Shown: piece after piece, positions 7,170 to 22,109 of the stretch
Layout: every line of letters begins with the position of its first letter
Numbering within the stretch: position 1 is the first letter of the stretch
NCBI GenBank assembly: GCA_013298565.1
Contig: JAAFIC010000001.1
Location: forward strand, 62,001-126,000
DNA: 64,000 bases
Direction of reading: 5' to 3'
From: Alphaproteobacteria bacterium
GTDB taxonomy: Bacteria > Pseudomonadota > Alphaproteobacteria > Elsterales > Elsteraceae
Program-made: the position numbers and the translations under genes
Notes under the pieces: model-generated
Told to the model about the DNA's origin: nothing
The model's input: the letters and a program-made list of their open reading frames with translations, nothing else
The model's database searches: none

Positions 7170-8786
7170 TTATGCCGAATTTAGGCGCTGCCTCGCTAGT
7201 TTAATTTTTGCCCCATAGTGATGGCGCAGATGGGCGCGTAGTTCTGACCAAAGCTCCGGCCAAAGCGGATCGGCAGCCGCGCGGCTATAGGTGAGGGCTT
7301 CGCGCAGCAAGCCCGATACGCGGGCGCGGTCAATGCCCTGCAACGCCCCCTCCCGGTAGCGAATCTCGCCACCGACCATGGTTAAGCACACATCGCGGGC
7401 GGAAGCACGGTTGAGGATATTATCTATCAAGCTGGCTTCCAGATCGAGCGACGGGCCTTCAATACCTTGCAGCGATAGCGCCATCAAATCGGCAGGCCCC
7501 CCGACCACAAGTTGCCCGGCAACCCCGGCAAGACCAATAGCGCGGGCAGCATTCTCTGTGAGCATCGCCAGTTGTTCGGCGGTCGTTGGTCTGTCGTCCC
7601 ACGGCCCGCCTTGGCTAATGTCGGTTACGCGGGCCAAGCCTGCGGCCAAGCGCAACTCGCTCAACATATCTTCGTCATCGGCCAGCGCGCGGTTATTGGT
7701 GCCGAGCGCAACCGGAATACCTGCGCGCAACAATGGCCCCAGTCGGGCGATGCCGTGGCGTAGGCGCAGATTGGAGCCGGGAGTGGAAACCGTACAAACC
7801 CCGCGCGCGGCCAAAAGCTCGATTTCGGTAGGCGATAGCCACACGCCTTGCACGATGGTCAGCGCCGGGCTTAAGAGGCCGAGCCGATCCAGCCGCACGA
7901 GAACCCCCTCGGGGTATAGGGCTTGGCAAACGGCCCAATCCACTTGGCTTTCATAAAGCGTAAGGTGCAGGCCAATCCCGCGTTGGGCGGCATCGGCGGC
8001 GATTTTAGCCAGGAAACCATCGGAAACATATTGCGGGCCGGGGAAAGCGTAGCGGAACGTCAGCGTCGGCTCGGCCCCAAATTCCGCCAGCAGGCGGCCC
8101 ATCAGCGCAATCGTATCCTCGGCAGAACCAGCGTAGATCGGCAGCGACGGCTCGGTCAGCAAGGCGCTGAGTTCCGGCGACAAACGATCCAGAAAGCCGG
8201 GCAGGTCTTCGCTGGGAGAAACGATGTCGCCCTGATCTATCGAGGATACGCAAATGACAGCGCGCAGGCCCGCTTCCAGATAGCCGCGCAGGGCCGCCCG
8301 CAACTCCCCCTCGTAATCGCCCGTGCCTTGGCTTGCGCCCGCGTGCAGTGCCGTGCTGACGCCGTGGGACAGCATATCGGAAGCAGCGGCTAGCGCCAGC
8401 GGGTAGGGGTCGAGCGAGGTGCGCGCCAGCCGCACCATCAGGGCGTTATCGAGCAGATCATCCCCAGGGGTCAGCGGGGCTGCGGTCAGCGCCCGGCCCT
8501 GTTGGTGGGCATTGATCAGACCAGGCAGAATAATACAATCTGGCAGCCGTTCTACCGCCACATCGGGGTGCGCTTCGATCAGGCTTGTGACCAGATCAAT
8601 CGCCGCTATCTTGCCTTCCTGCACGAGGATTGCAAAATCCGGCAGCAATCCTTCGGGGTCGTAACTTGGCAGAATGTAATCGGGTGCCAGAATCAGGGAT
8701 TCTTGCCCACCTTCCCCAAGATCGCGCTCCAATGAAGCGCGGTGCGCGTCCGAGCGGGCCGGAAGGGTAAGGGCTGAACGGGGCAT
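7170..8786 (-). CDS. Amidohydrolase-fold protein with lost metal ligands
   Basis: 538 aa, related to the TrzA/AtzA/SsnA branch of metal-dependent amidohydrolases. The framework is intact: LPGLINAH, DMLSHGVSTALHAGAS, RLDRLGLLSPALTIVQGVWLSP, SNLRLRHGIARLGPLL and GIPVALGT. Nearly all canonical zinc/iron ligands are changed: the HxH of the first strand is HQQ, the expected HLxE histidine is Thr (TLYE), the histidine of the H-G-V-H segment is Trp (QGVW), and the GTD aspartate is Asn (GTNN). A hydrolase of the usual type is therefore doubtful; it may be a catalytically dead relative with a binding role. It has a plausible own promoter (8847-8875). Confidence 0.75.
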   Translation of the reverse strand: MPRSALTLPARSDAHRASLERDLGEGGQESLILAPDYILPSYDPEGLLPDFAILVQEGKIAAIDLVTSLIEAHPDVAVERLPDCIILPGLINAHQQGRALTAAPLTPGDDLLDNALMVRLARTSLDPYPLALAAASDMLSHGVSTALHAGASQGTGDYEGELRAALRGYLEAGLRAVICVSSIDQGDIVSPSEDLPGFLDRLSPELSALLTEPSLPIYAGSAEDTIALMGRLLAEFGAEPTLTFRYAFPGPQYVSDGFLAKIAADAAQRGIGLHLTLYESQVDWAVCQALYPEGVLVRLDRLGLLSPALTIVQGVWLSPTEIELLAARGVCTVSTPGSNLRLRHGIARLGPLLRAGIPVALGTNNRALADDEDMLSELRLAAGLARVTDISQGGPWDDRPTTAEQLAMLTENAARAIGLAGVAGQLVVGGPADLMALSLQGIEGPSLDLEASLIDNILNRASARDVCLTMVGGEIRYREGALQGIDRARVSGLLREALTYSRAAADPLWPELWSELRAHLRHHYGAKIKLARQRLNSA

Positions 8787-8846
8787 TGATACACACGCTT
8801 TCTGGCGGCAAGCAGGGGACTTACAGACGGATCACACTCTGCATTA

Positions 8847-8875
8847 TATATCGGCAGGTTGTCCCGTTCTTTCAA
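8847..8875 (-). promoter_or_regulatory. Putative sigma70-type promoter for the amidohydrolase-fold gene
   Basis: On the minus strand TTGAAA (8870-8875), a 17-nt spacer, then GATATA (8847-8852), about 60 nt before the start codon. It also overlaps an alternative TATAAT. Confidence 0.4.
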
Positions 8876-8906
8876 TCGCTTCACGGCGTGCGGCTCATGT
8901 CATATT

Positions 8907-9437
8907 TTAAGCGTCGAAATAATGATCCACAGAGGTGCCGCATTCCGCCAGATTGCACCCATAGAGGTGCAAGGAGGTCATGGGGCGCGGGCCGGGATTG
9001 CCGATGCGGTGAACCCCATGCGGGCCGGGGGCGGCAAAGCTGGTCATGCCGGGTCGCAACGCTCTGCCCCCCATGGGTTCGGCAATCGGATCGGCAGCGC
9101 CGCCTTGGTTGACCACGGCGCGCAGGCGAAAGAATTCTTCAGCCCCTTCGCCGTCGATCACGCCCAAGGCGCACCAAGCACGGTGATCGTGAACGCGCGA
9201 CCATTGCCCTGGCATCCACGCAATCGCGCAAACCGAAAAACGCCCTTCCGGGGCGACATGCAACAGCGTGACGGAATAAGCCTTCGGATCGAAGCGCAAA
9301 TTGATTCCCGCCAAAAGATCGGGCTGGGTTAAGGCCGGAGCCAGCAGCGCCGCCAAGCGCCGCTCCAGCGGCAGGCTCTCGCCATCCTGGCGGTCAAGTT
9401 CGATCGTGACGGACTGAATGAGGCTGGCAAGGCTCAT
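8907..9437 (-). CDS. Cysteine dioxygenase / 3-mercaptopropionate dioxygenase-like cupin
   Basis: 176 aa single cupin. The Fe(II) ligands can be placed: H-D-H in WSRVHDHRAWCALGVIDGEG and a later His in GPHGVHRIGN; SLHLYG near the C-terminus supplies the conserved aromatic/His region. Enzymes of this family oxidise cysteine or related thiols to sulfinic acids with O2. The gene overlaps the GntR/FCD regulator by 4 nt (ATGA), so it is translated with it and probably regulated by it. Cysteine versus 3-mercaptopropionate as substrate cannot be decided by eye. Confidence 0.82.
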   Translation of the reverse strand: MSLASLIQSVTIELDRQDGESLPLERRLAALLAPALTQPDLLAGINLRFDPKAYSVTLLHVAPEGRFSVCAIAWMPGQWSRVHDHRAWCALGVIDGEGAEEFFRLRAVVNQGGAADPIAEPMGGRALRPGMTSFAAPGPHGVHRIGNPGPRPMTSLHLYGCNLAECGTSVDHYFDA

Positions 9438-10180
9438 GATCGGCGCTCCAGGCGGATGGATAGGGTATCAATCGGGTCAGACGATAGAATGGCGTCGCGG
9501 ACCATGCGGAAGGCATCGGCCACCTGTTCGGCGGCGATGCGGGCAGCTTCCACGCTGTCGCCCGCTACCAGCGCATCAATTAGGCAATGGTGCTCGTGGC
9601 TGATTTCCTCCGTCCGGTCGCGCAGGGCGAGGCCGATATGGAGCAACCGTTCCGATTCCATCATCAATTGCTCCAGCATCGCTGCCAGCCGGGCATTGCC
9701 GGAGCGGCGGGCAATCAGCAGATGGAACTCGCGGTTGGAGGCCAGAAAACTCTCCGCGCTATTGGGGTCGCCAGGGCTATAGCGGGCCTGGCAGGCGGCA
9801 TCGAGTTGGGTTAGCTCGTCGGCAGCTACTTGACCGGCAGCAAGGCGCGCGGCTTCGGATTCAAGCAGTTGGCGTAGATCGAAAATATCGCGCACGTCCC
9901 GTAAAGTAACAGGGGCAATCTTCCAGCCGCGCCGGGCTTGCGCGCGCACCAGCCGATCTTGGGCAAGGCGCGATAGGGCGGCACGCACGGGGGCTTTGCC
10001 AAAGCCGAAACGGGCGGCAAGCTGGGTTTCAGAAACCTCCGAGCCGGGCGGCAGCGCACAGGTGATGATCGCCCGGCGAATGGCCTGATAGGCGCGGTCG
10101 CCCAGGCTTTCACTATTTTCATCGTGGCCCAGGGTTGGGAGAATGACAATCGTTGACATGGCAAAATCCATAACTGACAT
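9434..10180 (-). CDS. GntR-family regulator, FadR (FCD) subgroup
   Basis: 248 aa from the first ATG; starts at the MDFAM or MSTIV methionines are also possible because none has a strong ribosome-binding site. An N-terminal winged helix (YQAIRRAIITCALPPGSEVSE, then QLAARFGFGKAPVRAALSRL) is followed by an all-helical FCD ligand domain with the metal-binding pattern D..R (FDLRQLLE), H (NREFHLLI), H (HEHHCLIDAL). It overlaps the thiol dioxygenase gene by 4 nt. Such regulators are usually repressors relieved by a carboxylate ligand; here the ligand may be a thiol or sulfinate metabolite (inference). Confidence 0.9.
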   Translation of the reverse strand: MSVMDFAMSTIVILPTLGHDENSESLGDRAYQAIRRAIITCALPPGSEVSETQLAARFGFGKAPVRAALSRLAQDRLVRAQARRGWKIAPVTLRDVRDIFDLRQLLESEAARLAAGQVAADELTQLDAACQARYSPGDPNSAESFLASNREFHLLIARRSGNARLAAMLEQLMMESERLLHIGLALRDRTEEISHEHHCLIDALVAGDSVEAARIAAEQVADAFRMVRDAILSSDPIDTLSIRLERRS

Positions 10181-10256: not shown

Positions 10257-12440
10257 CTATTTTTCCAACAACGTCCAGGCCCCTGTCCAAGTATCGGGCG
10301 GGGGCGCTTGGCGTAGAGCGGCGCAGCGCTTCAGCAGGCGTTGGCTGGGTTGATCGTTAGGGCGCAAGGTTAGGCATTCCTCGAAGGCGGCCATCGCGCC
10401 GTGCCAGTCGCGGCGATAGTAACGGCGCAGGCCCAGCTCGAAATGATCGCGCAGGCGGGCGGTGTGATCGTCGAGTTTGCCGTGCTCGGCGAGCAATTCG
10501 TAAACTTTCACGGCTTCCGACTTGCCCATCACCACGATTTCCTCCATCTCGCGGGTTTCGATCTTTATGCCCGCAAGCTCCCGCGTCGCGCCTGAAATCA
10601 GCAGGCGCGTGCCGAGGGCTTTATTAGCGGTTTCCAGCCGTGCGGCGAGATTGGCGGTATCACCCAATACGGTATATGTGCGCGACTGTTCGGAGCCGAT
10701 GGAACCAACGATAAGTTCCCCCGTTGCAATGCCGCAGCGGATGTCGATGCCTTCGATCTCGTGGGAAAAGCGCCCGCTGCGGACCAATCGGTTCACCCAA
10801 GCCCGCACTTCTTCCCGCTGCTCTAGGGCCGCCAAACAGGCTTCGGAGGCTTGCGACATATCCATCGTGAACGGTGGCCCCCAGAAGGCCATGACCGCAT
10901 CCCCCATGTATTTATCGACAATGCCGTGCTGATCTTTGATGGGGCGCGACATAAGGGTTAGGTAATCGTTTAGAATCGTTACCAACTCGCGCGGATTGAG
11001 CCGTTCCGAGAGATTGGTAAAACCCTGCATATCGGCGAAAGAAACCGTCATTACCTGCTGCTCGCCGCCGATGTTTGGATCGACCAGCAAGCTCGCCACC
11101 ACGCGCGGATCAATGTATTTGCCGAAGGTCTCGCGGATATTCTCGGCTTTACGGCGTTCCGCAATATCGGCCAACATACGGTTGCAAAGCTGCTTAAGCA
11201 CCGAGGACAGGAGGGCCAACTGATCTTCATCGCCCCGGTTAGGATCGTGGGCGGCGGCGCTATCGCGGCGTTCGCGCACAATGGCTTCAAGATCGCCCAA
11301 CACCTCGCGCCGAGCCTCTTCATCAAGCGTATCGGCCAGCGCGAGCATTTGGCGGCGGATCATGCGTTCCTGGCGGCGGCGCTGGCGCTCGCGCTCGTCC
11401 CGGTAGCGGTCGAGAGTGCGGGCGTGATCGCGGAAAACCTCGACAGCAGCAGCGATACGGCCAATTTCATCGTTCTTCGGCGCATAAATCTGCACGGACG
11501 TATCGCCGCGCGACAAGGCGTTTAGCCCGGTGATGGCATCGTCCAACGGCCCAAACGAGCGGCGTAAATACCAGATGAGAAAGGCGACAATCAGCATCAC
11601 GCCAAGGCCAACCAACAGGCCGCTTACCAACCCTACGCGGTCCACGCGCGCGATGGTCGCGGTCACATCCTTGACGGTAATCAAGGCCCCGACGACGCGG
11701 CCCACGGCATCTTCCAGCGGCACCGAGGCAATTTGATACGTGCGTCCAATCACGCTGCGATGCTCGATAAAGCGTTGCCGGATTGGCAGATCGAACGCTA
11801 GTTGCTGAGCCAAAGCCTGATTGGTGCCGTGGGCGATGCGGTTACGCAGCGACAAAATATAGGCATCCCCCCCCAAGCCTTCGCTTAATTCCGCTAGTGC
11901 CCGGTCGCTATCGACGGCGGCGACCAAAATACCGCTCACGTGCCCCAAGGCTCCGGTGATCGGTTGTGCGACGGTGATGCGGAACCGGCGGCTGCTATCC
12001 TGCTGAACCAGTGCCGTCGCTTTGCCCTCGTTCAGCACGTGACTGATCGTGCCTGCGTCCAGCAACGTCGGCGGCGGAAAACCGCTGGCGGTGGTCAGCA
12101 GTACGTCGCCCTCCCGGTCCAGCAGATCGAGTTGATCAATGCGCTTGGCGGTTTGAAGCCGAGTGATGTCTATCGACACTATCTGCTGCACGTCCGGCCG
12201 TTCGCCGGTTTCAAGCGCATCGGCCAGGGGAAGCGTCGCCATCTCCCGCAAGGCGCTGCTCAGATCCTGCTCGTAGCGTTCGATGATTTTCGACCACAGC
12301 AGGGCTTGGGTTTGAAAGGTTTCCTCTGCCCGTCTATCTTCCACCAGCCGCTCGCGCTGCCAACTGGCAGCAACGAGACCGCCGGTCAGCAGCATAAAAG
12401 CCGTGGCAACGATGAGGACGACCCGCGTGCGGAGTAGCAT
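10257..12440 (-). CDS. Membrane-bound class III adenylate/guanylate cyclase with Cache-like sensor and HAMP
   Basis: 727 aa. TM1 (residues 6-26), a periplasmic Cache-like sensor of about 240 residues, TM2 (VSGLLVGLGVMLIVAFLIWYL), HAMP (about 290-345), a helical linker, the cyclase homology domain (about 465-640) and a short TPR-like C-terminal tail. Both metal aspartates are present (SFADMQGFTNLSE and DKYMGDAVMAFWG) and the transition-state Asn/Arg segment reads GDTANLAARLE, so it should be active. It is the third gene of a tight operon (6-nt gap) behind a sensor-MFS fusion and a small sensor. A cytosolic cNMP-binding protein is encoded at 1431-1871. Confidence 0.9.
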   Translation of the reverse strand: MLLRTRVVLIVATAFMLLTGGLVAASWQRERLVEDRRAEETFQTQALLWSKIIERYEQDLSSALREMATLPLADALETGERPDVQQIVSIDITRLQTAKRIDQLDLLDREGDVLLTTASGFPPPTLLDAGTISHVLNEGKATALVQQDSSRRFRITVAQPITGALGHVSGILVAAVDSDRALAELSEGLGGDAYILSLRNRIAHGTNQALAQQLAFDLPIRQRFIEHRSVIGRTYQIASVPLEDAVGRVVGALITVKDVTATIARVDRVGLVSGLLVGLGVMLIVAFLIWYLRRSFGPLDDAITGLNALSRGDTSVQIYAPKNDEIGRIAAAVEVFRDHARTLDRYRDERERQRRRQERMIRRQMLALADTLDEEARREVLGDLEAIVRERRDSAAAHDPNRGDEDQLALLSSVLKQLCNRMLADIAERRKAENIRETFGKYIDPRVVASLLVDPNIGGEQQVMTVSFADMQGFTNLSERLNPRELVTILNDYLTLMSRPIKDQHGIVDKYMGDAVMAFWGPPFTMDMSQASEACLAALEQREEVRAWVNRLVRSGRFSHEIEGIDIRCGIATGELIVGSIGSEQSRTYTVLGDTANLAARLETANKALGTRLLISGATRELAGIKIETREMEEIVVMGKSEAVKVYELLAEHGKLDDHTARLRDHFELGLRRYYRRDWHGAMAAFEECLTLRPNDQPSQRLLKRCAALRQAPPPDTWTGAWTLLEK

Positions 12441-12446
12441 GGACGG

Positions 12447-14342
12447 TTAGCGCTCCTGTCGGGCGATAGGCTGGGGGCGCATAGTTTGAACCAACCCAAG
12501 CGCCACAGCCGGAATCCCTAAAATCAGCAAGGCAAATGGACTCCCCGCCGAAGCGATGAAGGCGGCCAGGCTAACCCCAATCAGCCCCCCCGCCATATCG
12601 ACCATCAGCAACCCCGAAACTGGCCATAGCGGGCGCGTTAGACCCCAACCGATACCGAAAAGGCCGACCGCAAGCGTGCTGGTAACAACATCCGCAGTCA
12701 GCGCGAATCCGGCAAGGCCCAGGGCTGCAACCAGCAAACCGATACCCTGCCGCCGGGCGACCCCCGATAAAAGCCGCGCCGACATCAGCACACCCAACCC
12801 GAACGCCCCGTAATGCGGCACCGAGGCCAGCAAGGTTCCGGTCGATAGCCCCATCACCGGCAAGGCTTGAAACAGAATGGCACCGGCAACCACTGCCAGG
12901 GTCGCAGGCCCCCAAAGGCTTGGCAAGCCGGTTAAATCATCTGCTTCGCTCATATCTGGCGTAGCATCGGTATTCCGCAGATTGTTCCAACCATACAGCG
13001 CGCACAGGCCCGCTGCGGCGGCGATGAGCCACAGGGCGGCATTGACTCCCACCCCCTCGCCCAGCACGGCCCCGACCACCGGCCCAACCGCATGAAAGCC
13101 AAGGGCTGCAACGAGAACGATGTTCCGATCATGGAATATATCCGCCCGATACCGCACGGTTAGGATGCGCCAAGCCATGCCGAGCGCAATGCCGCCAATC
13201 AATCGGCTAGCCCAGAACACAAGCGCGCTCTGCGTTGCCGCCGTTGCCACCAAACTGAGGGCCAGCAGCAGCATTGCCAGCAAAAAAACAAGATTTCCAT
13301 GGTTTGGCCGCACCAGCGGCGTCATCACAGTGCCAAAGCCAATCCCGACCAGCGTTAGCCCAAGGGGGACGGCGGCCAGGAGAGAAGGCTCCAACCCGCC
13401 CAAAACATGCGCGCTTCCCACCAGCGGCACGAGCGGGCGCACCATTTCGCTGATGATGGTGAGAATTAGCATCAACCAGCGCCCATCGGGCCGCGCAATC
13501 GTTTGCCGCAACAGGCGGCGGTTATCGGTGGCGAGCGTGGGGAAGCGGGTTTTCGCGTCTTCCAGCATATGAGACAGCCGGTCGGCGGAAGCCGCATCGA
13601 GATCCAGCCCGCGAATGGCGTTGGCCGACGCGGCAAACCGCTCGAACCGATCTGCGACGGTACGAAGGTTAGCGTTCAACCGCCGGATCGCGCGCCCCAT
13701 CGTGCCGGGGGCATTGGCGGCGAGCGAGGCGCTGAAATCGCCCTCGAGCACCTGCTGCAAGGCCGCGCCAAGCTGCGCCGACGGCGTATCAAGAGCGCGC
13801 GCCAGAATAAGCCGCGTCACCTCGAAAATAATAAGCAGACCAGCTAGAATAATTCCGAGCGAGGCAGCTAGATACAGCCATAGCCGATCAATTGCGAAGC
13901 TCAAATCGCTCCCGACGCGCAAGGCCCCAACAGCAGCCCCATGCACCGAAATGGGCAAAGTGCTAACGACGGGACGGGAAAGCGACGAGAAACCGCCGCC
14001 GTTATTAGCAGAAAGCGCCTTACCTGCCGCAAACAAAATACGGCCACTCGGGTCGGTCACTTCCATACCGTTAAGGGTTGGATTATCGTCCAACACTTCT
14101 TGCAGCATATCGTTCACCCCGGCCAACTGTTGCAGCGGAATACCGGCGTTGACCCCACTGCTGAGGTGCTTGACGAGCGAGCGGCCCACGGCGGCACTGT
14201 TTTTCTGCATTTCCGCGACCAGCAGCGGCGTTACCGTGCGGTTGGCCGCCCACAACATCGCGACCGCCGCAATGAGCAAGAGCGCCCCGCACAGCAGCGT
14301 TAGGCGCAGCGAAAAGGGGCGTTTACCCATGGGGCGGCTCAC
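12447..14342 (-). CDS. Sensor-HAMP-MFS fusion protein (MFS half degenerate)
   Basis: 631 aa. TM1 (about residues 12-32), a periplasmic sensor domain of about 115 residues with GIPLQQLAGVNDMLQEVLDD, TM2 (about 150-172), a HAMP-like linker, then about 12 hydrophobic helices arranged as an MFS domain (about 285-620). The MFS motif A between TM2 and TM3 is unrecognisable here (VMTPLVRPNHGN), so transport is doubtful. The start is GTG, overlapping the stop of the preceding small-sensor gene (GTGA); an in-frame ATG four codons on is an alternative. It is a paralogue of the protein at 16153-18231. I know of no characterised protein with this architecture. Confidence 0.75.
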   Translation of the reverse strand: MSRPMGKRPFSLRLTLLCGALLLIAAVAMLWAANRTVTPLLVAEMQKNSAAVGRSLVKHLSSGVNAGIPLQQLAGVNDMLQEVLDDNPTLNGMEVTDPSGRILFAAGKALSANNGGGFSSLSRPVVSTLPISVHGAAVGALRVGSDLSFAIDRLWLYLAASLGIILAGLLIIFEVTRLILARALDTPSAQLGAALQQVLEGDFSASLAANAPGTMGRAIRRLNANLRTVADRFERFAASANAIRGLDLDAASADRLSHMLEDAKTRFPTLATDNRRLLRQTIARPDGRWLMLILTIISEMVRPLVPLVGSAHVLGGLEPSLLAAVPLGLTLVGIGFGTVMTPLVRPNHGNLVFLLAMLLLALSLVATAATQSALVFWASRLIGGIALGMAWRILTVRYRADIFHDRNIVLVAALGFHAVGPVVGAVLGEGVGVNAALWLIAAAAGLCALYGWNNLRNTDATPDMSEADDLTGLPSLWGPATLAVVAGAILFQALPVMGLSTGTLLASVPHYGAFGLGVLMSARLLSGVARRQGIGLLVAALGLAGFALTADVVTSTLAVGLFGIGWGLTRPLWPVSGLLMVDMAGGLIGVSLAAFIASAGSPFALLILGIPAVALGLVQTMRPQPIARQER

Positions 14343-15094
14343 AGTTCGTCATCCAATCGCTGAAGATCTTTGGCGCGGGAATCGAGATAGGCGGCGGCGC
14401 TCTTGATCTTTTCCTGGCCCGCGCTGGCAAGATCGACCAGCGGGTCGCCGTTGAGCGCAGGAGCGCCCTCGCCGCTGAAAATTGCCAGAAGCGCCCTAGG
14501 CCGCGCTGCCGAGGCCGCAGTGAGGGCGGTGGCGCTGGCAAGAAGAGCGAGCGCGAGACCGGCGAATATCCCAAGACCCCATAGGTTTAGGTTATCGGAA
14601 AATTCGTCAAGCCGTTGATCGAAATAGGTTTTGGCGTACTGAAGCGCCACATAGCCTACGGTTCGCTCAAAATCATTCACAATAGGCACGCCGATGACGA
14701 TGGCATCGCGCTCAACCACTGTCCACCTTTGGCCGCTCGTGGTTTGAAGGGCCGTGAACCAACGGTTAGGCGCTTCTTCGCCCACAGTACCCCGGTCGGT
14801 GCTAAACAAACTACGGCCTCTTTCGTCTAAAACCTCGATGGCGAGAATTTGATCGTCGTCTGCCTTCTCGCGTTCGATTAAATCTTGGCTTACCCGCAGT
14901 TCGGCCAAGGGAAAACCTAGGCCGATATTCAATTCTAGTGCGGTTTTCAAACTCTGGGAGACGAATAAGAAGCGTGTTTCTGCCAATTGATCATAGGTTT
15001 TATCAACTAAACTACGATTTAGCTGGAGCACTAGACTAAAAATCAAACTCATAAAGAGCAGAAGGGTGAAAAAAATTCGCAGTCGGAAGGTCAT
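14339..15094 (-). CDS. Small membrane sensor protein (first gene of the minus-strand module)
   Basis: 251 aa. TM1 (residues 4-24), a periplasmic domain of about 140 residues, TM2 (LWGLGIFAGLALALLASATAL) and a 60-residue cytoplasmic tail with no kinase or cyclase domain. The periplasmic part carries NIGLGFPLAELRVSQDLIER, DDDQILAIEVLDERG and SLFSTDRG, nearly the same as in the divergent protein at 15398-16156. GAGGTGG lies 7 nt before the ATG. It overlaps the following sensor-MFS gene by 4 nt, suggesting equal production and perhaps a complex. It probably acts as a ligand-sensing subunit (inference). Confidence 0.7.
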   Translation of the reverse strand: MTFRLRIFFTLLLFMSLIFSLVLQLNRSLVDKTYDQLAETRFLFVSQSLKTALELNIGLGFPLAELRVSQDLIEREKADDDQILAIEVLDERGRSLFSTDRGTVGEEAPNRWFTALQTTSGQRWTVVERDAIVIGVPIVNDFERTVGYVALQYAKTYFDQRLDEFSDNLNLWGLGIFAGLALALLASATALTAASAARPRALLAIFSGEGAPALNGDPLVDLASAGQEKIKSAAAYLDSRAKDLQRLDDEL

Positions 15095-15397
15095 TATTTA
15101 CCACCTCATCGCCCATAGACGCAGAATAAATTATCCTAACGGCATATAGTCTATGTCGTTAACCGTTCAAAGACTTTCTATAAAGAATCAATTAATCAAT
15201 AAAGATCAATTGAAAGATAGGCAAATCTCTGTCCAACGCGAAAACACTTCTATCTTGCCATAAAAATGCTGAGATGCCAAGATTATGAAGGATTTTAATG
15301 TTTAATTCATGGGTGCCGCGATATGCTAATTGCCCAATGACTTTAGGGGAATGCAGGATTTCCACCCAAAGTCGTAGTGCACTGGGTTGAGGGTATC
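15095..15397. promoter_or_regulatory. Divergent regulatory region between the two sensor/MFS operons
   Basis: 303 nt, clearly AT-richer than its surroundings. It must contain both divergent promoters. An A/T-rich stretch around 15186-15215 repeats ATCAATT on either side of an ATCAATAAAG segment and could bind a regulator. No standard -35/-10 pair is convincing, and no ORF is seen. Confidence 0.5.
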
Positions 15398-16156
15398 ATG
15401 CGCGGAAAGCTGTCGCTAAAGATCGTTTTAATGTTGCAGCTTGTGTTTGGTGCCGCGCTGATTATGACGGCCTTGCTGAACTATTTCAAATTTGAAAAAG
15501 CCGTTACCAATGTTATCGCCTCTCGCTTCGTCGTTACCGTCAATGGGCTTCAAGGCGACGTTGAAAATGCGATGAATTTGGGGTTGTCGCTGGGAGAGTT
15601 GCGTGATCTTCAGCAACTAATCGAGCGCGAAGGGCGTAGCGATGACCAAATTTTGTCGATTGAGATTGCCGATACATCTGGAACCATTTTGTTTTCGACC
15701 GATAAAGCGCGCATAGACACCCCCCTGCCCGAAGATTGGTTGCGGACGATGACGCGCTCCGAAGGCGGAATTTGGCAGCAAACCTACAAAGATAATCCGG
15801 TCTTGGGAGCCACCTTGCGAAATACGTTCGGTCAGGTTGCAGGTGGGGTGATGATAAGCTACGCCAAGTCCGCGATTGCTGGCCGCACGGCGGCGGTGCG
15901 TCCAGGGATTGTTGGGGCGGCGCTCGTGGCGATTATCGCGTGCAGCTTACTAACCGTCATTGCTGTGTGGCTTGTGTTTCGCAACATCATTGCCGGGTTC
16001 CGCGCCGGTGAAACCTATGTGGCGGCGGCCCTGGCGGAGGGCGATACGAATAAGGCCCCCAAGCCCACAGGGGCCTTGGGGAATGATATTGTTGCCATCG
16101 TCGAAACGCTTCGGGGCGCCGATCAAGAGTTGAAGCAGGCAGCAGAAAAAGCATGA
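15398..16156 (+). CDS. Small membrane sensor protein (first gene of the plus-strand module)
   Basis: 252 aa. The ATG at 15398 is chosen because GAGGG precedes it; a GTG 21 nt earlier is less likely. TM1 (about residues 8-28), a periplasmic domain with NLGLSLGELRDLQQLIEREG and DDQILSIEIADTSG, TM2 (IVGAALVAIIACSLLTVIAVWL) and a HAMP-like cytoplasmic helix pair ending AIVETLRGADQELKQAAEKA. No output domain. It is a clear paralogue of the protein at 14339-15094, encoded divergently. It overlaps the next gene by 4 nt (ATGA). Confidence 0.72.
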   Translation: MRGKLSLKIVLMLQLVFGAALIMTALLNYFKFEKAVTNVIASRFVVTVNGLQGDVENAMNLGLSLGELRDLQQLIEREGRSDDQILSIEIADTSGTILFSTDKARIDTPLPEDWLRTMTRSEGGIWQQTYKDNPVLGATLRNTFGQVAGGVMISYAKSAIAGRTAAVRPGIVGAALVAIIACSLLTVIAVWLVFRNIIAGFRAGETYVAAALAEGDTNKAPKPTGALGNDIVAIVETLRGADQELKQAAEKA

Positions 16157-18231
16157 ATAATGATCTCGCAAAATCCATCAGTTTCCGGCTGTTAACGCTT
16201 GCGGTTTTGTTGCTGCTGGCAATGCTGGCGGGTTTTTCGGCCTTTTCGCGCACTTTGTTCGAGCCGCAAATTATCCCGGAACTTGAAAAAAAGGCCGAAA
16301 AAGTCGGCTCGTATGTACTGGTCCAGCTTAATCAAGCCGTAGAATGGGGCATCCCGGTCGAAAAATTGGCGGGTACTGACGATCTGTTCGACGATATTCT
16401 GGAAGATAATGCCGATATTGGCTTTATCACGATAACAGACGTGAACGGCAAGCGATTGCATTTGCGCGGCACGCTTCCCCCGCAGTTCGAGGCAGGTTTG
16501 GTGCAGATTGCGCGCGAGACCGCTCAGGCAAAAGCGCTCACGCCGGGCCGCTTGGGGCCGGTCTTCCTCACGAAATCGTTGCCGATCAAGTCAAAAGATA
16601 CGGTTATCGGCGTTCTCCACGTCGGCGCGCGCGCTGATTATGTTAGTAGTCAGTTGCAGGAGGTTTACTACGATCTTGCGATCATCCTGCTCGTAGCCGC
16701 GCTCTTTACTTTTGAAATTCTGCTGTATTTCGTCAATGCCTCTATCCTGCGACCCATTCGCGATATTCACGAAATGGCGGCGCGGGTGGCAGCGGGCAAT
16801 TTCGGGCGTCCGATTGCGCCCAAAGCTCGGGACGAGTTGGGCCGTATTGCGGTTCGATTGGACGAAGCCGTAGCAAAGCTGCGCGGCAATTATGAAGCGC
16901 TGGCACAGGCCGTGACGGGCTGGGGTGCCGATGCGCGAGGCCGAGTATCGGCAACGCTCAACAAGTTTGAGTATGGTTTTCCGTCGAAGCCGTCTCTGGC
17001 AGCCACGAGCAGCCAGCAGGGTACAGCGTTGATCCGCATTGCGGTGTTCGTTTTCAGCTTGGCGGAAGAGCTAACCCGCACGTTCCTGTCGGTGTATATC
17101 AAAGAATTGTTCGATCCTGTTCCGGGCCTCGCTATGGAAGTTGTGATCGGCGCGCCGATTGCGTTGTTTATGCTGTTATGGGCGTTGGCCCAACCCTTCG
17201 CCGGGGCCTATTCGGAAAAATTTGGCCGCCGGAAAGTTTTCTTGGTTGGAGCGGCACTTGCCGCTATCGGGCTTGCGGCCTCGGGCGTATCGGGAACGCT
17301 CGTGCATTTGCTGATTGCACGCTCCATCACTGCGATTGGCTACGCCATGGTGTTCATCTCCGCGCAAGGCTTCGTGATTGATAATACGACGCGCGAAACC
17401 AGAGCGCAGGGCATGGCCGGCTATGCAGGCGGAATTTTAACGGCGGGTGTTTGCGGCCCAGCGATTGGCGGGATTCTTGCAGATCAAATCGGCTTCCGGA
17501 GTACGTTTATTCTATCGTCTTTCCTCGCCGTTATTGCTGCCGTCATGGTTTATCGCGCTATTCAGGAACGCCCGATTAGCGTGCAATCGGAACGCTTTAG
17601 CCTAGCCAACTTAGGGCTGTTCATCGCCAATCCCCGATTTATGGGCGTGGTATTGTTTTCGGCCATTCCGACTAAGTTGGCGCTCACCGCGCTCGTCTTC
17701 TTCCTGGTCCCGCTGTATCTGAACGACCAGGGGATCAGCCAATCTATGATTGGGCGCGTGTTGTTGCTGTATTGGCTGGCGATGATTTTTGTCTCACCAG
17801 TCGCCAGCAGCCTCTCGGATCGCTTGGGCAACCGAAAGCTGTTCGTGGTTGCGGGCGGTGTGTTGGCGGCAGTTGGGGGCGTGGTTGCAGTGCTAAATAC
17901 CTCGATCTGGTCGATGGTAATTGGCCTCACTGTGCTCGGTATTGCTCATGGCTTAGTGATGACACCGCAACTGGCGCTCGTCACCACGCTGTCGCACGGG
18001 CGAAAAACTCAAAAGATGAGCGAAACCACAGTCTTGTCGATGTTCCGCCTAATGGAGCGTATTGGTAATGTGATCGCGCCATTTGTGGCGGGTGTGTTGT
18101 TGGCACGCTTTGGCTACGCCGGGGCAATCGCTGGCATTGGCTATATCCTAGCGGTTTGTGCAGCCATCTGCTTGATCTTGTTCATTACCTTCCGGGAGCC
18201 AAAAGTTCCCGCGCAAGAGGGGCATGTTTAA
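16153..18231 (+). CDS. Sensor-HAMP-MFS fusion transporter
   Basis: 692 aa. TM1 (about residues 12-32), a periplasmic sensor with GIPVEKLAGTDDLFDDILED and FITITDVNGKRLHLRG, TM2 (about 176-198), HAMP (ILRPIRDIHEMAARVAAGNF) with a coiled linker to about 295, then a full MFS domain of 12 TM. Two good motif-A loops are visible (GAYSEKFGRRKVFLVGAALA and SSLSDRLGNRKLF), so this MFS part looks transport-competent. The N-terminal half is homologous to that of 12447-14342. It is translationally coupled to the small sensor upstream and followed after 1 nt by a Tat-exported binding protein. Substrate unknown. Confidence 0.82.
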   Translation: MNNDLAKSISFRLLTLAVLLLLAMLAGFSAFSRTLFEPQIIPELEKKAEKVGSYVLVQLNQAVEWGIPVEKLAGTDDLFDDILEDNADIGFITITDVNGKRLHLRGTLPPQFEAGLVQIARETAQAKALTPGRLGPVFLTKSLPIKSKDTVIGVLHVGARADYVSSQLQEVYYDLAIILLVAALFTFEILLYFVNASILRPIRDIHEMAARVAAGNFGRPIAPKARDELGRIAVRLDEAVAKLRGNYEALAQAVTGWGADARGRVSATLNKFEYGFPSKPSLAATSSQQGTALIRIAVFVFSLAEELTRTFLSVYIKELFDPVPGLAMEVVIGAPIALFMLLWALAQPFAGAYSEKFGRRKVFLVGAALAAIGLAASGVSGTLVHLLIARSITAIGYAMVFISAQGFVIDNTTRETRAQGMAGYAGGILTAGVCGPAIGGILADQIGFRSTFILSSFLAVIAAVMVYRAIQERPISVQSERFSLANLGLFIANPRFMGVVLFSAIPTKLALTALVFFLVPLYLNDQGISQSMIGRVLLLYWLAMIFVSPVASSLSDRLGNRKLFVVAGGVLAAVGGVVAVLNTSIWSMVIGLTVLGIAHGLVMTPQLALVTTLSHGRKTQKMSETTVLSMFRLMERIGNVIAPFVAGVLLARFGYAGAIAGIGYILAVCAAICLILFITFREPKVPAQEGHV

Positions 18232-18232
18232 T

Positions 18233-19264
18233 ATGGTGAATTTTTCACGTCGTCGCTTCGTCGTTGGGGCTGGCATTGCCTCCGCAGGTTTTTCGACAGG
18301 GCTTGCGACGTCGGCGTTCGGGCAGGATGCGGATGGCAAGACGTTCCGTATCGCCATTCTCACGCCGCGTGAGAATATCGGTGATGTGGCAGGGTTTCGC
18401 GATTTCTTCGCGAATGCCCGTATCAAGGTTGAGTACGACCTGCGTGTTGTCACCAATATGGCCGATATGCCCGGCCATCTTGAGGCGCTGAAACAATCGC
18501 GCCCAGACTTGATTTTTACTATTTTTACGCCGATTACTCAGGCGGTTCTGGGTGCCCATGATGCGGCGGATAAAAGCCAGTTCATCACCGATATTCCGGT
18601 CGTCTTCAGTTCCGTTACCAATCCAGTTGCCTCGAAGGTCGTGCCGTCGTTGGAGGCCCCCGGTCGCAACTGCACCGGCACGCGCCATATCGCCCCGCTC
18701 GACACACAGGTGCGGACGATCAGCCTGATGAAGCCCGTGAAGAAGCTGGCGATCATTTATAATCCTGCCGAAAGCAACATGGTCGTCACGGCGGACGAGT
18801 TGCGGACACTGCAACAGCCGCTCGGCTTTCAAATGCTTGATAAGCCCGTGCCCCAAGACGCGGAGAAGAAACCGATTGTGGCGGCAATTCCCGATTTAGT
18901 GCGGGCCGCTGCGACAGAAGGGGCAGACTTTATCTATGTCGGACCAGATACGCTGGTCGGCTCCAACAATAGCAAAGCCGTGGCCGATACAGCGATGGCG
19001 CTAAAAATCCCCACCTTCTGCGCCACGGAACTGCCGGTGCGCCAATCGAATATGTTGATGGGCCTTGTTAGCCGCGCTTATAATGTTGGGCGTTTTGCGG
19101 GCTATAAGGCCAGTGAAATCCTTATCGGCGGTAAGCCCGCGCAAGCGGTGCCTGTTGAAACGCTGAAGCGTTTCTCCTTCATCCTCCGCATCCCGGTTGC
19201 ACAGAAACTAGACCTGTATCCGCCAATGCGTCTGCTGAATATCGCTGAAGTTATAACCTCGTAA
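18233..19264 (+). CDS. Tat-exported ABC-type substrate-binding protein (PF04392-like), orphan
   Basis: 343 aa from the ATG at 18233, which has AGAGGGG at a good distance; the ATG at 18224 would be only one base from it. The N-terminus has a twin-arginine signal (SRRRFVVGAGIASAGFSTGL) ending near AFGQ. The mature part has two Rossmann-like lobes typical of the ABC_sub_bind family (IAILTP start, DLIFTIFTPITQAVL, PVVFSSVTNPVASKVV, RTISLMKPVKKLAIIYNP, YVGPDTLVGSNN). No permease or ATPase gene is near, so it may present a ligand to the sensor or MFS proteins of this operon instead. Confidence 0.85.
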   Translation: MVNFSRRRFVVGAGIASAGFSTGLATSAFGQDADGKTFRIAILTPRENIGDVAGFRDFFANARIKVEYDLRVVTNMADMPGHLEALKQSRPDLIFTIFTPITQAVLGAHDAADKSQFITDIPVVFSSVTNPVASKVVPSLEAPGRNCTGTRHIAPLDTQVRTISLMKPVKKLAIIYNPAESNMVVTADELRTLQQPLGFQMLDKPVPQDAEKKPIVAAIPDLVRAAATEGADFIYVGPDTLVGSNNSKAVADTAMALKIPTFCATELPVRQSNMLMGLVSRAYNVGRFAGYKASEILIGGKPAQAVPVETLKRFSFILRIPVAQKLDLYPPMRLLNIAEVITS

Positions 19265-19280
19265 GGCGGGGGGCAGACGG

Positions 19281-20024
19281 ATGTTGATTTCCTGCACGCA
19301 ATGGTTGGATAGCGGCACGCTGAAGGCTCCTGCCGAGCCGGAACGGGCGTTGCCCTTCTATTTTCGCCGCTTGGGCCGGGAAGATCGTGTTGAGATTATA
19401 GAGTTTCGGGAGCAGATTTTTACGGCTCTGCCCGATCCCGATATGTACGTGCCCGAAGTGCCGGAGTTTGTGGATTGGCACTTGGAGGGGGAGCGCGGTG
19501 TTACCTTCGGTCTTTTCATCGAACACCAGTTGGCTGCGATCACCGTGCTGGGGCTACCTAAGCCGGGAATGCCAAATTTCGCCGCCGATCTGCCCGTGCC
19601 GCCCACCGATTTGAGCGAGGTCGCCCATATTGCAAGCTCTATGGTGAGTGCGCGCTATCGGGGGTTCGGGCTGCAACGGCGGTTGTTCAGCTATCGTGGG
19701 CTAATGGCATTAGGGGCTGGGCGACCCATTTTAACTGCGCGGGTCGCGCTGACCAACCCTGTTAGTTGGCGGAATATGCTGAATTGCGGAATGCACGTCG
19801 GCCAACTCCTAGTGATGCACGGCGACAAATTACGGTTTCTGTTCGTGCGCGATCTTCGGCAAGCGCCGCTCCAGTTTGAGGGGCCGCAGCATCTCGTAGC
19901 ATTGCGCGACGTGGAAGCCCATCGTGCGGCGCTGGCGCACGGATGGGTGGGATATAAGGCCATTGCCCAGGAGGGAGCGTACTTCCTGGCCTATGGGGCA
20001 GCAAACACCTGCATAGGAACCTAA
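19281..20024 (+). CDS. GNAT-like acetyltransferase-fold protein
   Basis: 247 aa, soluble. The order is consistent with a GNAT fold: FRRLGREDRVEIIEFREQIF (N-terminal helix), a beta strand (GVTFGLFIEHQLAAITVLGL), then HIASSMVSARYRGFGLQRRLF as the acetyl-CoA loop (R-x-x-G-x-G/L pattern) and NPVSWRNMLNCGM, the usual neighbour-of-CoA helix. It lies 16 nt after the binding-protein gene and about 100 nt before the ATP-grasp gene. It could N-acylate the ATP-grasp product or a related amine; this is inference. Confidence 0.65.
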   Translation: MLISCTQWLDSGTLKAPAEPERALPFYFRRLGREDRVEIIEFREQIFTALPDPDMYVPEVPEFVDWHLEGERGVTFGLFIEHQLAAITVLGLPKPGMPNFAADLPVPPTDLSEVAHIASSMVSARYRGFGLQRRLFSYRGLMALGAGRPILTARVALTNPVSWRNMLNCGMHVGQLLVMHGDKLRFLFVRDLRQAPLQFEGPQHLVALRDVEAHRAALAHGWVGYKAIAQEGAYFLAYGAANTCIGT

Positions 20025-20130
20025 TTATTAATGCTTTAGCATTATAATTGCCACCAAAAGCATATAATGATATAGAGAAATTCTCTATCGTTAGAGTGCC
20101 TGTGATTTGGCTCCCAAGGAGATCGTTCGA

Positions 20131-21390
20131 ATGTCCGGCCCTTGCGCTCTTATCGTCGATCCCTATTCAACTGGCGTGCTGTTCGCTGAGTACCTTCGAG
20201 AGCGGGGCTACCGCTGCATCGCGGTTCAAAGCGGCCCTGAGTTAGTCGAGTCGCTCTTGCGGACCTATCAGGCAGATGATTTCGAGACCCTGGTTGCGTA
20301 CACGGGGGATATTGAAGCGCTGCTGACGCAGCTTTCCGGGTACGATATTTGCTGCGTGTTGCCGGGGAATGAATCGGCAGTTGAGTTGGCTGATATTTTG
20401 GGCGCGCGCTTAGGTGTTCGTGGCAATGATGCGGCGACCACCAAAATTCGCCGCAATAAGTTCGAGATGATCGAACGCATCACGGGCGCGGGCCTACATG
20501 CCGCCCGGCAAAAGTTGGTGATGACGGAAAAGGAGGCGGGTACTTGGGCGCAGGCGCACGGGCACTGGCCAGTCGTTATCAAGCCGCTCGATAGCGCCTC
20601 TACCGATAATGTCCACGTCTGCCACTCGGAGGCTGAGGTGCGCGACGGTTTTCAGCGCATCGTGCAATCGCGCAATCTGTGTGGATTGCAGAACACGAAG
20701 GCGCTCGTTCAATCCTATTTGGATGGGCTGGAATATGTGGTTAATACTGTTAGCCGCGATGGTCGCCATTATATTTGCGATATTCTGGAGTCGCGCAAGC
20801 GCTCGCTGAACGGCTCGCCACTGATTTATGACTTCTATCGGCTGCTCGCGCCACAAGGTGATATTCAAGATCAACTATCGCGCTATATTATTGGCGTATT
20901 GGATTCGCTTGAAATCCGCAATGGCGGTGGCCACGCCGAAATTCGCATGACGGCGGAAGGGCCTGCCCTTATCGAAATTGCCGCGCGGGCCATGGGGCCG
21001 CTTGGCTCGACGACAACGGTTGCCCACGGCACGGGCCACGATCAGGCGGAACTAATCGTCGATGCGCTGATTGATGGCACCTTGTTCGACCGGTTGGTGG
21101 GTAATTCCTATCGTATGGAAAAGCACGCGATGGTCGTCTATCTGCCCTCCACGATTGATGGAATTTTGGGCGAACTGCCGATTTTGAACCATCTTGATAC
21201 GCTGCCGAGCCTCAACAGCTATCAGCTCATGGCTCAAATTGGCGGGCGGATTCGGCGGACGATTGATCTCACGTCGGTCTTGGCAAAGATTTATCTGGTT
21301 CATGAGGATGGCGCGCAGGTTGATCGTGATTACGCCCGCATCCGCGACCTGGAAACCGCCTTCCCGCCGAAGATTGCGGCTGCGGCATAA
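20131..21390 (+). CDS. ATP-grasp carboxylate-amine ligase (L-amino-acid-ligase type)
   Basis: 419 aa. The ATG at 20131 has AAGGAG 9 nt upstream; an earlier in-frame start is less likely. It has an N-terminal Rossmann-like pre-ATP-grasp domain (ALIVDPYSTGVLFAEYLRER), then the ATP-grasp core: WPVVIKPLDSASTDNV (ATP-phosphate loop lysine), VQSYLDGLEYVVNTVS (E of the adenine pocket), GGGHAEIRMTAEGPALIEIA with the metal-binding Glu and the Asn replaced by I/A, and ARAMGPLG. It resembles BacD-like dipeptide ligases. With an MFS protein and GNAT nearby it may make a small peptide-like compound that is exported or sensed. Confidence 0.82.
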   Translation: MSGPCALIVDPYSTGVLFAEYLRERGYRCIAVQSGPELVESLLRTYQADDFETLVAYTGDIEALLTQLSGYDICCVLPGNESAVELADILGARLGVRGNDAATTKIRRNKFEMIERITGAGLHAARQKLVMTEKEAGTWAQAHGHWPVVIKPLDSASTDNVHVCHSEAEVRDGFQRIVQSRNLCGLQNTKALVQSYLDGLEYVVNTVSRDGRHYICDILESRKRSLNGSPLIYDFYRLLAPQGDIQDQLSRYIIGVLDSLEIRNGGGHAEIRMTAEGPALIEIAARAMGPLGSTTTVAHGTGHDQAELIVDALIDGTLFDRLVGNSYRMEKHAMVVYLPSTIDGILGELPILNHLDTLPSLNSYQLMAQIGGRIRRTIDLTSVLAKIYLVHEDGAQVDRDYARIRDLETAFPPKIAAAA

Positions 21391-21500: not shown

Positions 21501-22109
21501 GTGCTTTGGTGGGCGCGGGCGTTGACCGAAGCCGAAGCTGGCAACATCACCGGCGTTTTTGGGGCCTCGCCAGACGAAGCAGGCAAATTGCTGTTTCCGA
21601 AGCAACCGCTGGCGCAGTCGCGCAATGTGCTGGCTGTGCGCGCGGGCGATGATTTCGTTTGGGCAGCGCCAAAGTCGCTGGCACCTTATGCGCTGGGAAT
21701 AATACTAGATTATTCCTATGGCCCGCTGCTCGATCCGTACATCAAGGCCAATCTAAAAAACACGAACCGCATTCAAGTTATGGGCGGCGATGAGCCGTTG
21801 AAGGGCAATCTGCGGAAGCTATTGGCGGGGCGCATCGGCGCGACTATTGATGATACGAACGTGCTGGCTTATGAGCTTATCACTGAAAAACAAACGGATG
21901 CGGTGCGCCTGGTCGATATTGCCGATCCGGCCAATCCGCTCTACATCGGCTTCTCTCCGGTAGTCCCGCAGGCTGCCACGTATGCGCGGTTACTGGATGA
22001 GACGATTGTCGCCTTGCGGGCGTCTGGCGAGCTTACCAAAATCCTGGCCCGGTACGGATTGCAGGATTGGCAAACCGGCGCGCCCGCTGCAAGCCCCGTC
22101 TCTAACTAA
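21501..22109 (+). pseudogene. 5'-truncated periplasmic amino-acid-binding protein (SBP_bac_3 type)
   Basis: An open frame of 202 codons from a GTG without ribosome-binding site. The sequence matches only the C-terminal two thirds of family-3 solute-binding proteins: it begins at the WARALTEAEAGNITGVFGAS segment and runs to the last helix (LDETIVALRASGELTKILARYG). The signal peptide and the first beta-alpha units, some 60 residues, are absent. A run of nine G (21475-21483) and an out-of-frame ATG at 21488 lie just upstream. Likely a decaying gene; a sequencing error in the G run alone would not restore the missing N-terminus. Confidence 0.7.

Follow-up and report, generated by a model that had tools for sequence, protein, structure and literature searches.

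The window, that is, the whole 64,000-nucleotide stretch of Elstera DNA analysed here (Elsteraceae, contig JAAFIC010000001.1), carries at positions 10257-21390 a module of eight genes that includes a fusion of a periplasmic sensor with a transporter of the major facilitator superfamily (MFS). The genes form two operons diverging from a 303-bp gap. The plus arm runs in the order S, F, B, N, L and the minus arm in the order S2, F2, AC, where S and S2 are small sensors and F and F2 the fusions that follow them. S overlaps F, and S2 overlaps F2, by 4 nt, and F overlaps B by 8 nt. The first-pass annotation, made by a model from the sequence alone, had described two divergent operons of overlapping genes, each opening with a sensor followed by a fusion; all eight reading frames were found where it had placed them, and the arms proved to be paralogous. 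The features are listed below (TM, transmembrane).

10257..12440, minus strand: AC, dCache-HAMP-class III nucleotide cyclase with a C-terminal TPR-like end; output enzyme of the minus arm
12447..14342, minus strand: F2, TM-Cache-TM-(HAMP-like)-degenerate 12-TM MFS domain, assigned by profile homology to F
14339..15094, minus strand: S2, small two-TM Cache sensor overlapping F2 (sub-threshold dCache_1, E 8e-5; two TM segments)
15095..15397, no strand: AT-rich divergent intergenic region, presumed from its sequence to hold both promoters
15398..16156, plus strand: S, small two-TM periplasmic (Cache-like) sensor overlapping F (two TM segments; S profile)
16153..18231, plus strand: F, TM-sCache-TM-HAMP-MFS fusion of 692 aa (Pfam MFS_1 and HAMP; structure model)
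18224..19264, plus strand: B, Tat-signal PF04392 (TrpX-like) periplasmic binding protein (PF04392, 100.8 bits; twin-arginine motif SRRRFVV)
19281..20024, plus strand: N, GNAT-fold acetyltransferase-like protein of a module-specific family (structure model and Foldseek)
20131..21390, plus strand: L, ATP-grasp ligase of the L-amino acid ligase / PRK07206 family (NF005543; PDB 30vh)

In Pfam, F matched MFS_1 (168.6 bits) and HAMP (41.7 bits), with sCache_3_2 under its curated cut-off. Neither a STAC nor a kinase domain was detected in these scans, and the transporter part is MFS, not SLC5. The AlphaFold2 (AF2) model, built on an alignment of 20 sequences, has a predicted local distance difference test score (pLDDT) of 80.6 and contains, in this order, a TM helix, a Cache-like alpha/beta unit (residues ~75-160), a second TM helix, a helical linker and a 12-helix MFS domain (289-680). 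By profile and fold, the nearest solved structures are VMAT2, NorA, EmrB and MdfA, all of them proton-driven exporters; the best Foldseek matches of the model are NorA, VMAT2 and MdfA. Within the 20-member F family, E306 in TM1 is kept in 17 sequences and R390 in TM4 in 19. The motif-A glycine 358, the loop residue D556 and R632/E635/R636 of TM11 are present in every member, as is G439 of motif C, the other motif-C residues being kept in 17 (C434) and 18 (G435) members. Domain content and the modelled 12-TM fold assign F to the MFS transporters of H+-antiporter (DHA) type, and its conserved residues suggest that it may be active in transport.

A sequencing or assembly artefact can be ruled out, because the fusion also occurs in an Elstera relative (G001), in Elstera litoralis and in dozens more genomes. 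Indeed, G001 carries both arms gene for gene (locus L016), and the E. litoralis contig NZ_LAJY01000046.1, the sole match of a contig search with F alone, encodes a fusion 86% identical to it. In the genomes sampled, members of the F profile were found in 21 of 386 Alphaproteobacteria, 11 of 397 Pseudomonadota and 3 of 323 Gammaproteobacteria, some of the matches covering the MFS part only (G337 and a second G001 locus are such MFS-only relatives). A tblastn search of plasmids added Azospirillum megaplasmids, Vibrio and Nitratidesulfovibrio plasmids and one Aureimonas plasmid. About 36 gene neighbourhoods were examined. S either immediately precedes F, in most cases overlapping it by 4 nt, or is fused to its N-terminus, as in L070/L071 (855 aa), Vibrio L027/L075/L077, alphaproteobacterial L020, Desulfovibrio L074, Aureimonas L076 and others. 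The order S-F-B recurs across families, again with 4-nt overlaps, and is a conserved unit. A PF04392 gene was found in all 30 F-positive genomes searched, mostly in 1-3 copies, and within ~4 kb of F in 27 of them, against a chance expectation of ~0.005 per genome. In two of the three others, G075 and G340, the contig with F is short or truncated, which leaves G983 as the one true exception. This adjacency and the repeated gene order rule out a chance neighbourhood, and the module itself is well supported. Its recurrence, with Cache-MFS fusions widely accompanied by small sensors and PF04392 proteins, was the check that the first-pass annotation had proposed, and its outcome was positive.

By sequence comparison, the plus and minus arms are true paralogues. 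S and S2 share 33% identity (E 8e-26), F and F2 share 26% over the sensor half (BLAST, E 2e-18), and the F and F2 families align across 547 columns that take in the MFS part as well (hhalign probability 100, E 1.8e-39). The S-family profile also picks up most F proteins through their Cache half; S therefore resembles F minus its MFS domain. F2 gave no Pfam match of any kind, and its HAMP-like and MFS parts could be recognised only through profile comparison and 12 predicted TM segments after the sensor. A sensor-HAMP-MFS architecture had been proposed for both arms; as F2 has no Pfam match, the term HAMP-MFS is accurate for the plus arm only. Compared with the F family, F2 has lost both MFS motif A and the TM11 R-x2-E-R. 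Its MFS domain is degenerate and probably not a transporter.

The minus arm had also been said to end in a class III cyclase with a periplasmic sensor of its own, and this was borne out by Pfam, where AC matched Guanylate_cyc (69.6 bits), dCache_3 (34) and HAMP (26.2). The best PDB matches of the catalytic domain are bacterial adenylate cyclases, e.g. CyaB 3r5g (2e-27), and the cyclase motifs FADMQGF, KYMGDA and YTVLGDTANLAAR are in place (metal Asp, Lys and Asn/Arg positions). Catalytic domain and motifs together identify AC as a predicted class III adenylate cyclase. The Elstera genome encodes four cNMP-binding proteins (cNMP, cyclic nucleoside monophosphate). A Pycsar anti-phage system was considered and rejected, as the PycC models match the generic cyclase domain only and PADLOC gave no match to the rest of the locus.

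In about a dozen other loci, a dCache-HAMP-SpoIIE phosphatase replaces the cyclase. G161 has S-F-B-S2-F2-phosphatase and G058 has S-F-B-N-S2-F2-phosphatase, each in one transcription direction; this is the Elstera set with another output. At L064 and L065 an F-type TM-Cache-TM-HAMP unit is joined straight to dCache-HAMP-SpoIIE, with no MFS in between. Two links are thus made by gene fusion, one between S and F and one between F-type sensors and the output enzyme. The usual output enzyme across loci is a SpoIIE-type phosphatase, and the cyclase is the Elstera version.

Beyond F, the plus arm continues, as first described, with a Tat-signal binding protein, a GNAT protein and an ATP-grasp ligase, supported here by PF04392, the GNAT fold and NF005543. 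B is the sole PF04392 gene of the Elstera assembly and scored 95 bits with NF041285, for which the TrpX cut-off is 390. Neither the operon nor its surroundings contained an ABC permease or ATPase gene for B among the scanned window genes. We therefore rejected B as part of an ABC uptake system and, given its score as well, as a TrpX tryptophan binding protein. Thus B belongs to the same family as the binding protein of TrpXYZ-type ABC uptake systems, yet falls below the TrpX cut-off and lacks their partners in its operon.

These properties of B bring up the explanation that F is an importer: B would pass a periplasmic ligand to F, acting as a Cache-HAMP-regulated uptake carrier, while N and L would modify what is imported and the cyclase arm would report its presence. 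The usual role of the PF04392 family in ABC uptake, the lack of ABC partner genes in the operon, the single PF04392 copy in Elstera and the overlap of the F and B genes all fit this explanation. The MFS half is nevertheless closest to exporters and keeps the motif C glycines, and we know of no MFS carrier for which dependence on a binding protein is established. Moreover, binding proteins also act as pure receptors, as LuxP and TorT do. Import through F thus seems unlikely. LuxP-LuxQ and TorT-TorS likewise pair a Cache/PAS-type sensor in the membrane with a soluble binding protein of the periplasm; they differ from the module in having no MFS domain, and docking of B on S or F is putative.

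L matched NF005543 (PRK07206) over residues 14-417 with 360 bits (cut-off 302), and the PDB L-amino acid ligase 30vh over 14-416 (E 6e-62). This full-length family match makes it a predicted L-amino acid ligase of the ATP-grasp type. It is far under the cut-offs for DdaF and BacD (DdaF, 220 bits against an equivalog cut-off of 840), and both identities were rejected. Its start, revised from the earlier annotation, is most likely the ATG at 20131 behind AAGGAG rather than the TTG at 20107. N gave no Pfam match, but the top PDB matches of its AF2 model (pLDDT 85.8) in Foldseek are all GNAT proteins (1.8e-8), and the GNAT fold is predicted with confidence. Among 357 alphaproteobacteria, all six strong N homologues lie at F loci; weaker, distant ones occur elsewhere in four genomes. 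Distant N homologues lie in small-genome alphaproteobacteria with no F match (L090-L094).

N and L form a single 659-aa protein in A. brasilense, and PRK07206-type ligases occur at both Elstera and Azospirillum F loci. Other F loci carry D-Ala-D-Ala-ligase-like ATP-grasps (Vibrio L027/L075/L077 and L064/L065), a GCS2 ligase (Aureimonas), alanine racemases (L062, L063) or standard GNATs (L018, L055). At L064 and L065, the divergent S-F and B genes are flanked by two D-Ala-D-Ala-ligase-like genes. The recurring carboxylate-amine ligases are of three families. That enzymes of unrelated families share related chemistry suggests a compound derived from an amino acid, and the recurrence of ligase and GNAT genes suggests that this compound is made, beyond merely being sensed. 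The bacilysin BacD-BacE and dapdiamide DdaF clusters likewise set an L-amino-acid-ligase-type ATP-grasp beside an efflux-type MFS. In the module, however, the putative exporter bears a Cache-HAMP sensor, signalling enzymes take the place of antibiotic genes, and L is under the DdaF cut-off.

On Vibrio plasmids and in related gammaproteobacteria, the module is embedded in type VI secretion system (T6SS) clusters. F-B is placed before VgrG in L024, L067 and L068, and [S-F]-B-SBP_bac_3-FHA lies between TssH and TssJ/TssK in L027, L070, L071, L075 and L077. On the Vibrio plasmids (L027, L075, L077) the ligase precedes the [S-F]-PF04392-SBP_bac_3 insert, the function of which is apparently undescribed. 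Eleven F-positive genomes have TssC, and in 8 of them it lies no more than 25 kb from F (0.17 expected). The T6SS neighbourhood of the S-F fusion in G023 also holds a second, partial F-like frame (L020:3-944), ~7 kb away from that fusion. Type III secretion system (T3SS)-type genes were found near F in G260; this is the only genome with FHIPEP near F, and T3SS was rejected as a general partner. Outside Pseudomonadota, the Nitratidesulfovibrio vulgaris plasmid pDVUL01 (L074) encodes a 987-aa sensor-MFS protein and a PF04392 protein beside a CesT type III secretion chaperone gene.

The module might accordingly be a secretion-system accessory that switches contact-dependent secretion systems (T6SS, T3SS) when it senses a compound from the cell wall or of amino-acid type; the Elstera locus, which stands alone, would then be a derived, re-wired copy. 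The clustering of TssC around F, the position of F-B between TssH and FHA/TssJ/TssK in Vibrio plasmids, the T3SS-type genes of G260 and the CesT gene of the Desulfovibrio plasmid can be cited in its favour. Yet TssC is absent from 19 of the 30 F-positive genomes, Elstera included, and only 6 of 21 F-positive alphaproteobacteria have a T6SS, close to the background of 65 of 357. Enrichment at the genome level is thus not evident in this class, and a T6SS link for Elstera itself was rejected, as TssC was found neither in the assembly nor among the scanned window genes. A T6SS is no requirement for the module, and we consider this explanation very improbable.

At L095 (G001:C34:88000-101500) and L066 (G337), a Cache-less MFS of the F clade lies beside PF04392, REC-SpoIIE, hybrid histidine kinase and chemoreceptor genes; this is a second, unfused version of the module. 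Azospirillum plasmids also have a Cache-less MFS of the F clade near a chemoreceptor gene. Since these MFS-only relatives adjoin signalling genes, the MFS clade is tied to signalling even without a sensor of its own. They keep alive the explanation that F is a transceptor of CbrA or UhpC type, in which the MFS half senses a ligand with no need for net transport; S, F and B would then form a receptor signalling to the cyclase or phosphatase, and the ligase and GNAT genes would be downstream and metabolic. Retention of the degenerate F2 MFS beside the output enzyme agrees with this, as does the existence of transporter-kinase fusions (CbrA; PMC7096432, PMC13022988). The known fusions are of the SLC5 kind, with the transporter first (PMC7096432, PMC13022988, PMC7918813), and CbrA was shown to transport L-histidine (PMC7096432).

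Like the SLC5-STAC-histidine kinase transceptors (CbrA, CrbS/MxtR), F is a single polypeptide that combines signalling domains with a transporter fold. It differs from them in being an MFS protein, in having no kinase or STAC domain, in having S and B as partners, and in its reversed order, with the periplasmic Cache first and the transporter last. Whereas known transceptors have the transporter ahead of the output domain, here it follows Cache-HAMP, in the output position. Furthermore, the charged residues and motifs of transport type in F are kept in 17-20 of the 20 sequences, more than sensing alone seems to require. We thus find a transceptor rather doubtful. UhpA-UhpB-UhpC and similar MFS-type sensors also include an MFS paralogue pair of which one member may sense and not transport; unlike the module, they have no Cache or HAMP, no binding protein and a kinase output.

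The reading that we favour, tentatively, is that the locus forms one make-export-sense circuit for an amino-acid-derived compound. L, as a dipeptide/amino-acid ligase, and N, as a GNAT, would act in the cytoplasm to form or alter the compound, and the MFS half of F would be its proton-antiporter-type exporter. The Cache-HAMP half of F, together with S and B, would adjust the transporter according to how much of the compound is present in the periplasm. S2-F2, with the transport residues of its MFS lost, would be a receptor or relay to the dCache-HAMP cyclase, which would report the state as cyclic AMP (cAMP); the dCache-HAMP-SpoIIE phosphatase would hold the same place in relatives. Export is suggested by the antiporter-type motifs, the nearest structural neighbours and the ligases next door. 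Gating is suggested because the MFS occupies the output position of a HAMP protein and because the same type of sensor is joined to a phosphatase in L064/L065, and a relay role for F2 is suggested by its lost transport residues and its steady placement before the output enzyme. It is possible, though speculative, that a Cache-HAMP unit here controls an MFS carrier as it would normally control a kinase, phosphatase or cyclase, and that a self-made, amino-acid-derived signal is exported and sensed in a self-contained circuit that has a binding protein of its own and a paralogue dead for transport but wired to a second-messenger or phosphatase output, a system taken up by T6SS clusters.

Several observations weigh against the circuit. 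HAMP was recognised by Pfam in only 8 of the 20 F members and MFS_1 in all 20; the constant arrangement is therefore Cache-TM-linker-MFS. More than half of the F loci have no recognised ligase or racemase, so that a made compound is not universal. The MFS-only relatives near hybrid kinases, REC-SpoIIE and chemoreceptors fit sensing by the MFS itself, and a binding protein is usually part of an importer or receptor, not of an exporter. Of the signalling-gated transport originally proposed, the link between sensing and MFS is well supported; HAMP is not a constant part of it, and the minus-arm MFS, being degenerate, is probably no transporter.

In a search of the open-access literature, which is no proof of absence, we found no description of Cache/HAMP-MFS proteins or their binding protein, nor of PF04392-SpoIIE or T6SS-MFS-ATP-grasp combinations or of the module within T6SS clusters; the first-pass annotation likewise knew of no HAMP-MFS transporter. 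Coupling of transport to signalling has precedent, but sensor gating of an MFS, if shown, would be of a new kind. The recurrent partner set points to an undescribed way to couple transport of an amino-acid-like compound to signalling. Proteins filed as plain 'MFS transporter' turn out to be a coherent family that keeps fixed partners in both alpha- and gammaproteobacteria as well as in a desulfovibrio. Should the sensor gate the MFS, transport would join the outputs of HAMP-type signalling as a new class; should the MFS be the part that senses, there would be a second transceptor superfamily beside SLC5. The T6SS placement offers a handle on the regulation of those clusters, and the ligase and GNAT genes a route to the ligand.

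A consensus promoter scan of the intergenic region (15095-15397) gave a signal no higher than in shuffles. The module is flanked by a GntR/cysteine-dioxygenase/amidohydrolase group and by an IF2-YlxR-NusA-RimP operon; because the genes on both flanks are unrelated to it, the module is an eight-gene island. Behind the ligase lies a GTG frame of 202 aa with no Pfam match (21501-22109, plus strand). The GntR/FCD regulator, cysteine-dioxygenase-like and amidohydrolase genes, at 7170-10180 on the minus strand, adjoin the cyclase end of the module.

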